A stretch of 42,459 nt of DNA from a virus. The notes under the pieces are model-generated. The model searched no databases, was not told the origin of the DNA, and worked only from the letters and a program-made list of their open reading frames with translations. The position numbers and the translations under genes were made by a program. Where the stretch lies: positions 1 to 42,459 of the IMG/VR virus record IMGVR_UViG_3300019764_000003, one strand, 5' to 3'. Positions 10,646 through 22,606 of this stretch are shown piece by piece (the first letter of the stretch is position 1; every line of letters begins with the position of its first letter).

Positions 10646-11463
10646 TGGTAGACAAATTTGAAGTTGGGGAATACTATAGGTTTACAGGGACAACCAGACC
10701 AGTGGAATTTAGCAGTGACGGTGAGATGGATTTCTGGTTGGATGGTAAGCCGAGAAAATGCGTGAGTGTTACAGACGATTTTTATGCTTATTTCACTGAC
10801 CAGCCAACAAGAAAAGATTGGTTTTATAACGGCTCTCTTCCTTATTTTGAGGAGGTTGATGCTGGAGAAAGATTTTTTGAGGTTGTGTCTTGTGGTAGAG
10901 AGTGGAAAGTTATAAATTACGTAGGCCACAAAGTAACAGAACATGCACTTAGAGAAAATAATTGGAGTGCCCTCAAAAATTGGGATGGTACCTTAGAGCA
11001 TCTTAATGAACTGCGGAGTGAAGAACAACAAGGCGATTATTACGTACAATACAAGGAGATACCTATGGAAGCACCAAAAACCATAACACTAAGCACTTTA
11101 CTTGATGCAAATGCATGTGATGGGGAACTTACTGCACTTATTGATGAGCAAGACACAACACGTTTTGAGATTACCCATTGGGGACAAAGTGAAGTTGTTG
11201 ACAGAAACAAAGAATGGGTAGTTAGTAAAGGTTTTACTCTTGAGGATGAAAAAGGTAAACTATATCAAGGGCATGTTGTTAAGCGTAATGGTAGTTATTA
11301 CATTTTCACACAAGTTGCCCCAGGGGAATATAAGCTCATCGATTTATATGGTAATAGATTGACCGATAAAACTTACCCCAGAGGTGCTACCATAGACGGA
11401 TTTGAAAAGGTTGCTGCCAATATTGAAGAATTTTTCTCAAAGGATCACAGAGGGGAACGTTAA
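10645..11463 (+). CDS. Hypothetical protein in replication cluster
   Basis: A 272-residue, acidic, predicted mostly beta protein with two similar-looking halves of strands rich in Trp/Tyr. It is coupled to both neighbours: its ATG overlaps the helicase stop, and its stop overlaps thyX. No motif recognised. The position suggests a replication or nucleotide-metabolism accessory role. Confidence 0.5.
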   Translation: MVDKFEVGEYYRFTGTTRPVEFSSDGEMDFWLDGKPRKCVSVTDDFYAYFTDQPTRKDWFYNGSLPYFEEVDAGERFFEVVSCGREWKVINYVGHKVTEHALRENNWSALKNWDGTLEHLNELRSEEQQGDYYVQYKEIPMEAPKTITLSTLLDANACDGELTALIDEQDTTRFEITHWGQSEVVDRNKEWVVSKGFTLEDEKGKLYQGHVVKRNGSYYIFTQVAPGEYKLIDLYGNRLTDKTYPRGATIDGFEKVAANIEEFFSKDHRGER

Positions 11464-12071
11464 TGCAAATAATCGAGCCAAGCTTTACTATTTTAGAATC
11501 AACCCCAAACATGGAATTGTTAATTGAAAAAGCAGGGCGCACTTGTTACAAATCAGAAGAAGCATTGGGCACAAATGAAAACTTTATACAAAGGCTTATT
11601 AAAAGGGGCCACGGTAGTGTGCTTGAGCATGGTAGTATTACTGTGTCCCTCACTGTTGATCGTGGGATTAGCCATGAGCTTGTGCGCCATAGGATTGCAT
11701 CGTTTAGTCAAGAAAGCACAAGATATGTAAACTATGGTGGCCGGGAACCAAGATTTATTTGTCCTGTTGGTATTTGTTCAGATGAACCAAAGCAGTGGAG
11801 ATCTTATGTTGCTTGGAGAGGGGTAATGGAATCCTCTTTTGAAGTGTATGAACGTCTATTGGGGCATGGTGTTAAACCAGAAGATGCAAGGTCAGTGCTA
11901 CCCAACGCATTAGCAACAGACATTGTAGTCACAACTAATGTAAGAGAATGGCGGCACATATTTGATTTAAGATGTAGTAAAGCAGCCCATCCAGATATGC
12001 GCCATATTATGTGCCAAGTGAGGGATGTGTTTGCTGTTAATTGGCCCAAACTATTCGGGGATTTAGTATAA
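11463..12071 (+). CDS. thyX: Flavin-dependent thymidylate synthase
   Basis: A 202-residue protein with the ThyX signature RHRIASFSQESTR (residues 75-87; R-H-R-x7-S class). It converts dUMP to dTMP using methylene-tetrahydrofolate and FADH2 as a homotetramer. Length matches the family. Together with dUTPase and NrdD it supplies dTTP for phage replication, with dUTPase making dUMP. The start overlaps the previous stop. Confidence 0.95.
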   Translation: MQIIEPSFTILESTPNMELLIEKAGRTCYKSEEALGTNENFIQRLIKRGHGSVLEHGSITVSLTVDRGISHELVRHRIASFSQESTRYVNYGGREPRFICPVGICSDEPKQWRSYVAWRGVMESSFEVYERLLGHGVKPEDARSVLPNALATDIVVTTNVREWRHIFDLRCSKAAHPDMRHIMCQVRDVFAVNWPKLFGDLV

Positions 12072-12115: not shown

Positions 12116-13264
12116 ATGCAAAAGGTAGCGGCGTTTGACTTCGAAACAACTAAGTTTCCTGATGCTGTTCCGTGGCAAACCAGAGCACGGCCAGTAACAC
12201 TACACATATTTGACGGCTCCAAACCAATAACATACACAGACTTTAACAACATAGACTTGTCAGAATATGATGTGCTTATTGCTGCTAATGCTAAGTTCGA
12301 TATGCACTGGCTCCAAGCATTGTCTATATCCTATAAGGAAGAAGCAATCTATTGTACCCAGGTGGCAGAATATATTATCAGAGGTAGCGACAACATGATA
12401 AACTATGACCTTGCTACGTGTTGTAAACGCTACAAAATTACTGATAAAATAGACAGAGTAAAACCCTATTGGGACAGTGGTATTGACACACCTGACATAC
12501 CAAAGAAAATACTAATACCTTACGGGGAACAGGACGCAGTGAACGCATATTTATTATGGCAAGCACAACAACCAATCATAAATAAGTATGGTCTTGAGAA
12601 AAGTATTAAGTTGGAAATGAGAACCATATCTTGTTTGTGTGACATTGAATCTAATGGTATGTTGGTGGATGTTCAGTTGTTTAAGGATCGCTCCGCTGCA
12701 AATAAAAAGCGCATACAAACAATAGAGCTTGACCTTAATGATGCTGTGGGTTATAATGTCTTGTGGTCCAGCAGTGATCAAGTGTCGGCCGCTTTGTTTG
12801 GAGGGACGATTAATGAAAAGTATGTAGAAACTTATTGGAAGGAACTCAAGTCTGGAAAAAAGAAGGCCACACGAAATGCTATTAGGGAAATAAAACTTGA
12901 TGGTATTTTTAAACCAGAACCAGAATGGGAAACAAAGAAGCCTGGTGTGTACCAAACTAATAAAGATATCCTTGTCCAAATTAAAGCCAAAGGTAAGAAA
13001 CAAAAGGCAGTGCTACAACTACTATTAGAATATAGTAAACTTAGCCAGGAAAATAAAACCTACTATGGCAACTGGGAACATGATGTTTGTTTAAAAGGTT
13101 GGCCCAGTTTTATTAGAGACGACGGACTTATCCACGGAAATATGAACCAAACAATAGCAACAACAGGTCGATTAACCAGCAGTCAACCGAATCAACAGAA
13201 CCTGCCAAGAGAAAAAGGAGGAGTGAAGAATGGAATCATCAGTCGTTATAGTGTATGCAATTGA
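12116..13264 (+). CDS. DNA polymerase family A, N-terminal part (3'-5' exonuclease and thumb)
   Basis: The 382-residue product starts with a DEDDy proofreading exonuclease: AFDFETT (Asp8, Glu10), KFDMHWL (Asp62) and YGEQD (Tyr136, Asp140). It runs through the thumb and ends in the conserved TGRLTSSQPNQQNLPRE segment, then GIISRYS. In a normal PolA this is followed within about eight residues by motif A, but here the frame stops at 13262. The palm resumes at 13673 after three small ORFs. The end of this part also contains the ribosome site and start of the first of those ORFs. Confidence 0.9.
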   Translation: MQKVAAFDFETTKFPDAVPWQTRARPVTLHIFDGSKPITYTDFNNIDLSEYDVLIAANAKFDMHWLQALSISYKEEAIYCTQVAEYIIRGSDNMINYDLATCCKRYKITDKIDRVKPYWDSGIDTPDIPKKILIPYGEQDAVNAYLLWQAQQPIINKYGLEKSIKLEMRTISCLCDIESNGMLVDVQLFKDRSAANKKRIQTIELDLNDAVGYNVLWSSSDQVSAALFGGTINEKYVETYWKELKSGKKKATRNAIREIKLDGIFKPEPEWETKKPGVYQTNKDILVQIKAKGKKQKAVLQLLLEYSKLSQENKTYYGNWEHDVCLKGWPSFIRDDGLIHGNMNQTIATTGRLTSSQPNQQNLPREKGGVKNGIISRYSVCN

Positions 13265-13397
13265 TCCTTGGGACGAACGCACAGTACTAAAGGTGTTTGA
13301 CACAGAAGAAAAAGCAATGGGCTACATAGCGTCACTACAAGAGGCAGAATCGGACGGACATTTTATTTACACATATGAGGAAAGGGCTGTTGAATAG
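13230..13397 (+). CDS. Small ORF 1 inserted in the polymerase gene
   Basis: A 55-residue ORF in another frame, with AAAGGAGGAG before its ATG inside the polymerase coding sequence. It contains VIVYAIDPWDERTVLKVFDT and ends in acidic residues. Codon pattern and overlap with the next ORF support translation. Function unknown; it resembles small phage accessory proteins rather than a homing enzyme. Confidence 0.6.
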   Translation: MESSVVIVYAIDPWDERTVLKVFDTEEKAMGYIASLQEAESDGHFIYTYEERAVE

Positions 13398-13483
13398 TGA
13401 AAATAACAGATAAAGATATCTGTCGGTGGGTTTGTGGTGTCATTAAAGCAGTAAACATACATGAATGGGAAGAGGAAGAATGA
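13397..13483 (+). CDS. Small ORF 2 inserted in the polymerase gene
   Basis: A 28-residue ORF from a GTG that overlaps the previous TAG by one base and ends in an ATGA overlap with the next ORF. It has an acidic tail (EWEEEE). Its size makes it uncertain, but the tight coupling on both sides supports it. Confidence 0.4.
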   Translation: MKITDKDICRWVCGVIKAVNIHEWEEEE

Positions 13484-13668
13484 CGACTGATCTTGTTGGG
13501 AAAGCATTTATGTGCGGTCCTCACGAGTATCCAGTGAAGTGGCAGGTGATTAGTGCAACAGACACCCATGTTACAATAACCAGAGTTGAAAAAATTAATC
13601 ACACAATGACTGTCGACACGAATGTTTTTTTAGAAGAGGTGCACCGTTACCAGTCAGAAAGGAGGTGA
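13480..13668 (+). CDS. Small ORF 3 inserted in the polymerase gene
   Basis: A 62-residue ORF from ATG 13480 (AGAGGAAG upstream; ATG 13465 also possible). Predicted beta-rich: PVKWQVISATDTHVTITRVE then MTVDTNVFLEEV, like a small barrel. It ends five bases before the start of the polymerase C-terminal part, and its last codons contain that part's AAAGGAGGT ribosome site. Confidence 0.55.
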   Translation: MTTDLVGKAFMCGPHEYPVKWQVISATDTHVTITRVEKINHTMTVDTNVFLEEVHRYQSERR

Positions 13669-13672
13669 GTCA

Positions 13673-14449
13673 GTGCCTATTATAGATGCTGACCTTTAGC
13701 TTAGCCAAATTGAATGGCGGGTGGCAGCTTATTTATCCCAAGACCAAACTATGATCCATGAAATTAACAACGGCATTGACCAACATGCAGCAGCTTGCGT
13801 TGATCTTATGGAAAGGGAACTAACAAAAGAAAATAGAAACGATGCAAAGATATTTAACTTCCGCATGATCTTTGATGGTAGCGCCTATGGGTTTTATGCC
13901 GATACAAAAATGCCCAACTTTTCTAAAAAGAAATGGGAGCTTATTGTTGATAGGTTCAAAGAAAAATACAAAGCCTTGTTCACCTATCACCAAAAGAATT
14001 TAATGGCAGTAAGAAGCAATGGAGGGTGGTTACGGGCAGAATCTGGACGCTACTATAGATTGCACAAACAATATAGAAAGGGTCATGGACAAGATTACAG
14101 CCCGTCTCAAGTGGCAAACAAGCTTATCCAGGCAATGGCTGCTGAGATTATGAAGTTAGCTATTATCCACATACGAAAAAGATTAGCCCATTTACCAGAA
14201 GTGTTGTTAATTAACCAGGTGCATGACAGTATTATTATTGATTGTCCTGAAAAACATGTTGACACAACCGCTAAAATTTGCTATAATACTTTTATAGAAC
14301 TGCCGCAGCTAATAGAAAAACATTTAACTGGAAAGCCTTTTAATGTTTTACTTGAAGGTGAGGTAGATGTTGGACCTACATGGGGAGAAGTAAAGCCGTA
14401 CATAGGGAGTAAAAAAGGCGAACCAATTTATATAAAGGAGAGTAATTAA
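13673..14449 (+). CDS. DNA polymerase family A, C-terminal part (palm/fingers) with in-frame TAG in motif A
   Basis: A GTG at 13673 has a near-perfect AAAGGAGGT six bases upstream and reads VPIIDADL, then TAG (13697-13699), then LSQIEWRVAAYLSQD. Motif A should read D-L-S-Q-I-E; the bases are GAC CTT TAG CTT AGC, so removing six bases restores it exactly. Downstream are a motif B-like segment (RNDAKIFNFRMIFDGSAYG) and motif C QVHDSIIID (Ser where Glu is usual, as in several phage enzymes). A start after the TAG (GTG 13721) would lack the catalytic Asp. TAG is a normal stop elsewhere in this genome. Confidence 0.8.
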
Positions 14450-19858: not shown

Positions 19859-22606
19859 ATGACAAATAGTATTGACGATTATATTCAGCAGCAAGATTGG
19901 CGAGTGAAGGAAAACAGCAACACAAACTATTCCATACAAGGATTGTACAATTATATATCAGGTTTAATGGTGTCTGATTATTGGATGAAGCAGTACTCTG
20001 ATGAAGTGGCACAGGCCCATAAGTCTGGTGACTTTCATATTCATGATGCGGATTATCTAATGCCCTATTGTTGTGGTTGGTCGTTAGAAGATTTAATCAA
20101 GAATGGATTCCAGGGACCAGCTAATAAAAACTCAGCAGCTCCGGCAAAACATTTCAGAGTTATTCTTGGGCAGATATATAACTTCCTCTACACACTACAA
20201 GGGGAAGCGGCAGGGGCTCAAGCATTTAGTAACTTTGATACATTAGTTGCACCTTTTATTGCTTATGACAATCTGACCTATGATGAAGTTAAACAAGCAA
20301 TGCAGGAGTTTATTTTTAATCTTAATGTGTCAACCAGAGTAGGGGCTCAAACACCTTTCAGCAATATAACTATGGATCTACAATGCCCGGCTATATTGGC
20401 AGATCAACCAGTAGTTATTGGGGGGCAGTATGTTGCTCTTGATGCTGATGGTGAGCTTGACTTAGCAGACTCTTATGACAAAGAGCTACTAACATACAGT
20501 CAGTTCCAAGAAGAAATGGACATGGTCAACAGAGCTTTTTGTGAGGTGATGTCAGAAGGTGACGCTAATGGCAGGGTGTTTAGTTTCCCCATCCCAACAT
20601 ACAACCTAACAAAAGATTTCGATTGGGACAATAAAAACTTAGATGCATTTTGGAGCATGACAGGTAAGTATGGTATTCCCTATTTCGCAAACTATATCAA
20701 CAGTGACATGTCCCCAGATGACAGCAGAAGTATGGCAATTCTTGGGACTGAAAAAGTCATCTTTCGTGAGCCAGGTGGCCGTGTGACCATCAATGAGATC
20801 CGCCATTTGGTATCCAGGTGGATTGCGTCAGATGTTAAACCTAATTATGAAATACTCTGTAACGGGGTCTTTGTTCCTATCATCGATATGTTTGAAGTTT
20901 GTTACCGAGACTATGATAGATATACAAAGTTTACTCTTGCTAATGGGTACACACAGAACTTCTCATACCAACATACATGTCCTATAGTACGTGATGGTGT
21001 GCGTATGGAAGTAGAAAGTCAAGAGGTCCAGGAGGGGGATTCTTTTCTGGTGTCTAAGTATGGTTACGAAGGAGAAGCCTTAGCAGGTACATACAGGTCT
21101 GGTAAAGTGTTGGGTTATTTCTTAGCGGAAGGTTGGGTTAATACGCACTCAAGCTCTGAGATATCATTTGCAATTAATATAAACAAAAAAAACATCGTTG
21201 ACGATATCACCGACTTTTTTAATAACATAGGTTGCGTAGTTAAAACTGAGGTGCAACTTGACAGAAATATCTATAAGATCAATGTGTATGGAAAACAAGC
21301 TGTTGGTTTTGTTAGACAGTATGTGAAAGGAAAAACAGCTAAGAAAAAAAGACTTGAATACGTTATTTGGAATACCTCTAAAGCATTCAGGGAGGGTGTT
21401 TTTTCTGGTTACTACGAAACAGACGGGAGTAAAAAATATGAGATATTCGCACACACAACAAATAAAGAGCTTATCGGTGATTTAATTATACTTGCTAACA
21501 GTATAGGTAAGGTGTTGAAGTACAGAAAGAACAATAAGAACACAAGGTACTTTAACAAAGACAAATCTGATAAGGTTTGTTTTACGAGCTATGAGTTGAA
21601 AGAATACACTGCGGATGAGTTCGAAGACTACTATACCATCCCTGTGACGAAGATTGAGTATCCTAAATCAAAGACAGATGTGGTCTATAACTTCACAGTG
21701 GACACTAAGGATCATTTATATGAGCTACCAAACGGTATTGTTACCCACCAATGCTGCCGACTTCGTATTTCCAACACTGAGCTTAGAAAACGTGGAGGCG
21801 GTTTGTTTGGGGCTCATCCTCTTACTGGCTCTATTGGAGTTGTCACTATCAATCTTCCTCGACTCGGAGCTATGGCTACAAATGAAACAGAGTTGTTCGA
21901 CGGGTTGGAGAAATTGCTGCAATTGGCTAAGGAATCACTAATAACAAAGCGTAATATTATAGATGAATTAACAGACCGTGGCCTATACCCCTATTCATCC
22001 TATTACTTGCGAGATGTTAAGGAAAGATTCGGCAGTTGTTGGGCCAACCACTTCAATACCATTGGTTTCATTGGTGGTAATGAGTGCTGCTTAAACTTCA
22101 TGGGGGAGGACATCACTTCGGAAGCTGGTAGAAAACTAATGCTCGACATTATGGACTACTGTAACAACAGGTTGGTAGCCTTTCAAAAAGAAACGGGCTT
22201 GTTGTTTAATCTTGAAGCAACGCCAGGAGAATCTACTTGCTATAAGTTAGCTTTGGCTGATGGGGGAGTGTATGACTACTATACTAACTCAACACACTTA
22301 CCAGTTAACTACACTGATGATGTGTTTGAGGCTTTGTCTTTGCAAGATGATTTCCAGACTAAGTACACTGGTGGCACGGTGCTTCATTTATTCTGTGGTG
22401 AAGAGATTAGCGATATCAAAACAGTAAAGAATCTGGTGAGGAATGTTGCTCAAAATTTTAAGCTGCCTTACTTTAGTATTACTCCAACCTTTTCAGTATG
22501 CGCCACACATGGATATATTAAAGGGGCTGAATACACCTGTCCAGATTGTGATTCAGAAACAGAAGTGTATAGTAGGATCGTTGGGTTGACAAATAGGCCC
22601 AACTAA
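19859..22606 (+). CDS. nrdD: Anaerobic ribonucleotide reductase NrdD, exon 1 with in-frame intein
   Basis: The frame encodes NrdD residues, an intein (codons 293-631) and NrdD again to Gly909 (22583-22585), then six intron codons to a stop. Family features are HIHDADYLMPYC near residue 58, TRVGAQTPFSN, NSDMSPDDSRSM before and CCRLRIS after the intein, a zinc-type Cys site (VCATHGY...CPDC) and SRIVG, the glycyl-radical Gly. Spliced protein would be about 596 residues (T4 NrdD is about 605) and lacks an ATP-cone. It makes dNTPs without oxygen. No nrdG activase gene is visible, so a host activase is probably needed. Confidence 0.93.
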   Translation: MTNSIDDYIQQQDWRVKENSNTNYSIQGLYNYISGLMVSDYWMKQYSDEVAQAHKSGDFHIHDADYLMPYCCGWSLEDLIKNGFQGPANKNSAAPAKHFRVILGQIYNFLYTLQGEAAGAQAFSNFDTLVAPFIAYDNLTYDEVKQAMQEFIFNLNVSTRVGAQTPFSNITMDLQCPAILADQPVVIGGQYVALDADGELDLADSYDKELLTYSQFQEEMDMVNRAFCEVMSEGDANGRVFSFPIPTYNLTKDFDWDNKNLDAFWSMTGKYGIPYFANYINSDMSPDDSRSMAILGTEKVIFREPGGRVTINEIRHLVSRWIASDVKPNYEILCNGVFVPIIDMFEVCYRDYDRYTKFTLANGYTQNFSYQHTCPIVRDGVRMEVESQEVQEGDSFLVSKYGYEGEALAGTYRSGKVLGYFLAEGWVNTHSSSEISFAININKKNIVDDITDFFNNIGCVVKTEVQLDRNIYKINVYGKQAVGFVRQYVKGKTAKKKRLEYVIWNTSKAFREGVFSGYYETDGSKKYEIFAHTTNKELIGDLIILANSIGKVLKYRKNNKNTRYFNKDKSDKVCFTSYELKEYTADEFEDYYTIPVTKIEYPKSKTDVVYNFTVDTKDHLYELPNGIVTHQCCRLRISNTELRKRGGGLFGAHPLTGSIGVVTINLPRLGAMATNETELFDGLEKLLQLAKESLITKRNIIDELTDRGLYPYSSYYLRDVKERFGSCWANHFNTIGFIGGNECCLNFMGEDITSEAGRKLMLDIMDYCNNRLVAFQKETGLLFNLEATPGESTCYKLALADGGVYDYYTNSTHLPVNYTDDVFEALSLQDDFQTKYTGGTVLHLFCGEEISDIKTVKNLVRNVAQNFKLPYFSITPTFSVCATHGYIKGAEYTCPDCDSETEVYSRIVGLTNRPN
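20735..21751 (+). mobile_element. NrdD intein with LAGLIDADG endonuclease domain
   Basis: A 339-residue in-frame insertion splits the conserved NrdD motif RSM/CCRL. It begins with Ala (AILGTEKVIF) instead of Cys or Ser and ends GIVTHQ before Cys+1. Ala at position 1 with Cys at +1 matches class 2 (KlbA-like) inteins, in which the downstream Cys attacks directly; the C-terminal Gln replaces the usual Asn. Block B His is in SYQHTCPIV. Two LAGLIDADG dodecapeptides are visible: VLGYFLAEGWV and VFSGYYETDGS. Boundaries are inferred from the NrdD motif. Confidence 0.92.

Follow-up and report, generated by a model that had tools for sequence, protein, structure and literature searches.

A family A DNA polymerase split between two phage genes, with a stop codon in motif A and a candidate ribosome hop

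How can a phage make a family A DNA polymerase (PolA) when the gene for its catalytic part is closed by a stop codon inside motif A? The question is raised by a virus record of 42,459 bases, analyzed at full length and here called the window. A 123-base repeat is common to both of its ends, so that this circular-looking sequence is probably a whole phage genome. Its portal-like protein is nearest to those of marine podoviruses such as Roseobacter phage CRP-5 (41%). The window also encodes a ThyX-type thymidylate synthase (11463–12071) and the large subunit of an anaerobic ribonucleotide reductase (NrdD-like, 19859–22606).

The split polymerase of the window and its relatives

The two polymerase genes lie on the plus strand, as do all window features described below. 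The N-part (12116–13264, 382 aa) comprises the 3′–5′ exonuclease region and the start of the polymerase domain and ends in GIISRYSVCN, after ISRYS as the sequence-only reading of this DNA had stated. It was aligned with split relatives and matches PF00476 (E 7e-15) and PF01612 (E 8e-5). Three small ORFs joined by TAGTG and ATGA overlaps are located where that reading had put them: 13230–13397 (55 aa; weak DUF7336 likeness, E 0.0025, under the Pfam cut-off), 13397–13483 (28 aa), and 13480–13668 (62 aa from ATG 13480, given as a 67-aa form from 13465 in the mechanical ORF list), the last two without a Pfam family. The C-part is preceded by the Shine–Dalgarno sequence AAAGGAGGTGA (13658–13668; duplex energy −12.9 kcal/mol) and begins at GTG 13673 with eight codons (13673–13696; GTG CCT ATT ATA GAT GCT GAC CTT, MPIIDADL). 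The catalytic Asp, placed by alignment with motif A of solved PolA, is GAC 13691–13693, and the next codon, CTT 13694–13696, is followed in frame by TAG 13697–13699. The sequence across the break is GAC CTT TAG CTT AGC CAA, with the stop one codon past the Asp. The TAG and a second CTT (13700–13702) make up six extra bases (13697–13702) at a point where relatives are intact. The remainder (13703–14449; SQIEWR onward) encodes fingers and palm to its stop codon without a further break, matches PF00476 (E 2e-29), and has 245 codons beyond the Glu-anchored point.

Both parts are family A polymerase above the curated cut-off (PF00476 positions 53–134 and 167–381), in agreement with the reading of one polymerase in two parts. 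The palm-part match is continuous across the TAG, a single match with "1 TAG" inside, which is more than chance, and the C-part profile also matches solved PolA, e.g., the Klenow fragment (E 1.5e-32). The N-part is the only other PF00476 match in the window; a second complete polymerase, sought there with this family, was not found. The palm part had been credited with its own start. The Shine–Dalgarno sequence and GTG 13673 are indeed present, but the ORF from this GTG closes at the TAG, and motif A with its catalytic Asp comes into one open frame only if six bases are skipped. With the TAG inside motif A, the palm gene must either be recoded or start elsewhere, or else it is dead. Initiation at GTG 13721, the next usual start codon in the open frame, would leave out the catalytic Asp. 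Translation of the C-part from 13721 in a non-polymerase role is highly improbable: the mechanical ORF list begins the C-part there, but no Shine–Dalgarno sequence precedes this codon, the codons ahead of the break are conserved and carry the strong one, and the phage would be left without a polymerase.

Split relatives were sought by tblastn of both parts against named phages. Two polymerase genes are annotated in MEP402, Alcaligenes phage QDWS535, two Manatee Spring phages, and ICP2. Among loci of IMG/VR and named phages with both parts located (87 loci minus three without an N match), 83 of 84 are split at the same region, the exception being VpV262, and a larger set holds 166 split loci. 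From the N-part stop to the motif A Glu, the distance is 13 to 3628 bases (median 152; ≤30 in 54 of the 166), with inserts ranging from none to 3.6 kb that contain unrelated small genes, a methyltransferase, and endonucleases. Most N-parts end a few residues after SRY or SRF, and most C-parts start with M-x-x-x-D. The window has the layout of MEP401/402, two genes of which the first ends after SRY/SRF and the second begins just before motif A. Since the split is general, the inserts are varied, and the C-parts have their own start, the arrangement most likely yields a two-subunit PolA and not an intron, and the two products may assemble into one enzyme. These counts lend good support to the two-gene reading. 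A split PolA is less unusual than that reading held; the MEP401/402 case has been described by authors who reported the split polymerase and raised the idea of an intron (PMC10580990).

Splicing of the insert to join the parts, as raised for MEP401/402, is the least probable of the explanations considered here. Introns are common in phage polymerase genes (PMC10580990), and two relatives (L120 and L228) seem by eye to have them at other sites; the range of insert sizes and the C-part starts argue against one here. Rfam gave no match at the gathering threshold in the window, none at E ≤ 1 over 13150–13800, and none in 16 large-gap loci, a search of limited sensitivity that also missed the likely intron of L120. 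This insert (L120, 1700–2700) lies in the fingers region before IYGGSAY, is group I intron-like by eye, contains a small broken HNH-like ORF, and was not called by Rfam at the gathering threshold.

The split of ICP2 (L005, 2581) lies ahead of the ISRF strand, with an earlier C-part start, and may therefore be independent. In 13 loci (L023, L025, L029, L044, L056, L057, L058, L061, L063, L069, L071, L082, and L086), the C-part ATG lies within the last codons of the N-part, with an overlap of 17 nt in another frame, so that a frame shift there could even join both parts as one chain. The gene between the PolA parts of a Manatee Spring phage (L002, 3350–3556) is annotated as an R67-type dihydrofolate reductase. 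L089 and L226 have a similar small Cys-rich ORF in the gap between the N- and C-part, which we take to be zinc-ribbon-like, and the L226 gap also holds a short ORF beginning MRNIWVTSDTHFNHSNF, presumably a cut metallophosphoesterase start. In L228 (2400–4000), a relative of the window (40%), the polymerase continues through the split point (IPRHDFIVSADLSQLEWR) and is interrupted further upstream, after TGRLSS, by an apparent endonuclease-bearing insert.

Frame breaks and HNH cassettes behind the catalytic Asp

A set of 216 loci anchored at motif A was collapsed to 173 distinct C-part sequences, after loci whose match fell short of motif A, L120 among them, had been dropped. Of these sequences, 159 are intact (among them L228, whose frame nevertheless extends upstream as in an unsplit gene), 4 unsplit, and 10 broken ≤4 codons after the catalytic Asp: the window, L002, L123, L138 (the same record as L092), L139, L140, L141 (L096), L143, L144, and L146 (L089). 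L142, identical to L141 over the part compared, brings the broken records to 11. The fraction 10/173 is not a rate: L139, L140, L142, L143, and L144 first came via an HNH protein search (L143 and L144 were recovered again by a C-part search), and L139 and L140 are near-duplicates.

The breaks are +6, +4, +1, or −1 nt in size, and full ORFs of 227–245 codons lie behind all ten. Stops are found in the window (CTT TAG CTT) and L138 (CTG TAA CTG). The other forms are CTT T CTT (L139–L142), ATT T GAA (L089), GCA AAA A GCT (L002), and GCA AAG followed by one missing base (L123, L143, and L144). Every form, in this order, would be mended without a residue gained or lost by re-pairing at a distance of +6, +6, +4, +1, +1, or −1 bases. 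In the seven alleles measured, take-off is from one of codons 8 to 10. The take-off codon is the same as the landing codon in the window, L138, and L139–L142, for which the chance per random insertion is about 0.016; both copies of this codon differ between L138 and L139, whose cassettes are related. The matched codons could partly stem from short duplications. The set includes all three stop codons as well as both other frames and so cannot be explained by a different genetic code. Broken alleles occur at no fewer than four places in the tree, some next to intact sisters, and by this comparison the window break is no isolated error. The only other row of the 173 with a short closed C ORF behind motif A is L126, in which a single nonsense codon (between VMP and GRTYKY) lies far past motif A.

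An assembly error or a fresh inactivating mutation would account for the window TAG and leave the other broken alleles a separate matter. We regard it as unlikely, though not negligible. The break rests on one assembly, and the whole ORF behind the TAG is as expected of something very recent. The nearest relatives of the window, L226 and L009, are both intact; L226 is the nearest found (48%), in a search from which records very near the window may be absent. The exact DNA around the break gave no match elsewhere, and neither the C-part search with the window sequence alone (15 pattern matches) nor that of genome contigs for window-type C-parts (40 pattern matches) gave a confirmed one. Against an error stand the circular-looking genome without another PolA, the in-frame six-base change with matched codons, the retained strong Shine–Dalgarno sequence, the same codons broken in nine other distinct sequences, and the HNH gene site of L089. 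The six extra bases start right after GAC CTT, where the remnant of L089 ends and its HNH gene continues. In the tree, the window, L089, and L226 group together (support 97/86) on long branches. Given this coincidence of site and grouping, yet with L226 intact, the window may be the descendant of a carrier or an independently guarded target.

An HNH endonuclease cassette precedes the break in 8 of the 10 broken sequences, one cassette being degraded, which makes the earlier hint at a mobile-element target apt. In L138–L143 (six records) and L123, an HNH-type gene lies between a remnant and a fresh copy of the C-part start; the proteins of L138 and L123 match PHROG 3322, endonuclease. The gene is mostly deleted in L144, where the fresh start and the break are retained. 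L089 has an unrelated HNH_3 gene, fused to a MIVDADL remnant. The sequence TTGACA-17-TATAAT, presumably promoter-like, is found upstream of the L123 HNH gene, with near matches in L138, L139, L141, and L143. The flanks of L139 are 93–99% identical to its empty-site relatives L094 and L095, relative to which about 550 bp are present between GCAGA and GAGTGG. M-L-L-Q-A-D-A-K-Q-L is encoded anew by the 3′ end of this cassette, with four codon changes, all of them synonymous. In the rescue codons of L143 and L144, five changes, AGC to TCA among them, are synonymous and none is a replacement; L138 and L089 have one replacement each. Overall, comparison with empty-site relatives or the own remnant gave no replacement in five of seven cases and one in the other two. 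The cassette thus consists of the first codons of the gene in a synonymous rewrite, followed by a frame break. In six of these sequences (L138, L139, L140, L123, L143, and L144), the 5′ remnant is without the Asp codon, so that motif A could not be regained by splicing this remnant to the 3′ part, which further argues against an intron.

No endonuclease gene was found at the split of the window, either in the ORF list or with Pfam. The break may protect from the endonuclease, and the window may once have carried a cassette. Other endonuclease-like genes, as read from the sequence, lie in the gap of L012, L066, and L097 with an intact C-part, which argues against a simple endonuclease–break rule. 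A flanking-repeat pattern was dropped as a general rule: of 87 HNH loci, 11 matched, of which only L146, L141, L142, and L144 are PolA, and the other seven look like chance.

Repair of the frame in translation

Behind the break, dN/dS among broken alleles is 0.03–0.14, and L139 differs from the intact L094 and L095 by 12 and 8 synonymous changes, respectively, and no replacement. A second PF00476 gene was found neither in the window nor in the eight broken relatives searched, several of which are fragments. Codons are conserved on both sides of the break and a second PolA was not found, which makes restoration of the frame in translation probable, whether through hops between matched Leu codons, for the window and two other alleles, or through frameshifting.

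The Shine–Dalgarno energy is ≤ −11.5 kcal/mol in all ten broken sequences, compared with a median of −5.6 in the 159 intact ones (P 7e-8; 8e-5 if each of five events is counted a single time); neither the cassette rows nor, among themselves, the intact rows are independent, and the intact L079 has an equally strong sequence. Strong initiation may offset inefficient recoding. Shifts by −1 are known at A_AAG, and for a related site, one study found that a 3′ C generally favored shifting more than a U did (PMC5009743). The +1 re-pairing in L089 (AUU to UUU) is imperfect. As to an RNA stimulator, nothing consistent was found: among eight broken alleles folded, only L143 stands out (z −2.2), and the break region of the window folds no better than shuffles. 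A start-to-landing hairpin suspected by eye in L138 and L139 was dropped (z 0.18 and −0.23).

The spacing in motif A bears on the mode of repair. Four residues separate Asp from Glu in each of the 163 intact or unsplit sequences; a hop keeps these four in the window, whereas readthrough would give six. Readthrough of the UAG, in which a near-cognate or suppressor tRNA would lengthen motif A by two residues, is very unlikely: the TAG is a single in-frame stop, as this explanation needs, but the four residues are kept in 163 of 163 relatives, and the frame-change breaks of relatives are beyond mending in this way. A tRNA gene was sought in the window and not found, and TAG closes 9 of the 47 called window ORFs of ≥80 aa; a suppressor tRNA or a recoded TAG was rejected on these grounds.

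Here, we propose a mechanism that we hold to be slightly better than an even chance. The only DNA polymerase of the phage would be a two-subunit PolA, formed by the N-part (exonuclease and start of the polymerase domain) and the C-part (motif A to the end). Translation of the C-part would begin at GTG 13673 from the near-perfect Shine–Dalgarno sequence, and after eight codons, the ribosome would reach the UAG just past the catalytic Asp. The peptidyl-tRNA-Leu would then release CUU, skip the UAG, and re-pair with the next CUU, so that the product reads exactly DADL-SQIEWR. Located at the HNH gene site of L089, the six extra bases would best be read as a homing-site scar or a guard insertion that can be tolerated since the protein is restored in translation, along the lines proposed for T4 gene 60. 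A wider proposal falls just short of even chances: the HNH cassettes in split phage PolA genes would be a natural gene drive with rescue, which cuts motif A, inserts, rewrites the gene start, and adds a guarding frame break, such that the polymerase is made only by ribosomes that hop or slip. The first natural in-frame stop-hops would be among these events. The window would be a descendant that lost the endonuclease and kept the hop.

Comparison with known systems

If these proposals are right, another phage system besides T4 gene 60 unites a homing endonuclease, a split essential gene, and ribosome recoding, with several different recoding solutions at one site of one gene. The window and L138 would supply candidate natural in-frame stop-hops, which were unknown at the time according to a 2016 review (PMC5009743). 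The question of whether bypass inserts arise as endonuclease resistance would become directly testable. The cassettes would form a compact natural parallel to engineered rescue gene drives, and the two-part PolA, which is widespread in environmental phages, would offer a split polymerase that is tractable. Among open-licence papers, none was recognised that joins a polymerase gene, a homing endonuclease, and recoding.

In phage T4, gene 39 was split by a homing endonuclease, and ribosomes bypass a 50-nt insert in gene 60 that may protect from cleavage (PMC5009743, PMC2988022). As in T4 mobA, gene 39, and gene 60, an essential enzyme gene is split at a homing endonuclease, the downstream gene is interrupted soon after its start, a stop follows the take-off codon with a matched landing codon beyond it (in the window and L138), and protection from the nuclease is possible. 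Unlike the 50 nt of T4, the gaps here are 6 or 4 nt, or plain +1 or −1 shifts, and the 6-nt gap of the window, which folds like shuffles, contrasts with a long structured one. The enzyme is PolA and not a topoisomerase, the break is at codon 8–10, the rescue codons are synonymously rewritten, the window is without an endonuclease, and the putative bypass is deduced from sequence.

In the Methylophilales phages MEP401 and MEP402, PolA is likewise divided ahead of motif A into two genes that flank a small unrelated ORF, and the replication genes are related (PMC10580990). The C-part of MEP402 is intact, unlike that of the window, and the accessible sections of that paper consider an intron and report no recoding (PMC10580990). 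In the split NrdA of phage Aeh1 and the split gene 43 of phage 25, an enzyme is also divided by or beside a homing endonuclease and its parts reassemble; these are other enzymes, for which the accessible part of the source names no recoding site (PMC2988022). The synthetic stop-hops of Escherichia coli were constructs, unlike the window, but share with its candidate hop a stop flanked by matched codons and the decoding of nine bases as one amino acid (PMC5009743).
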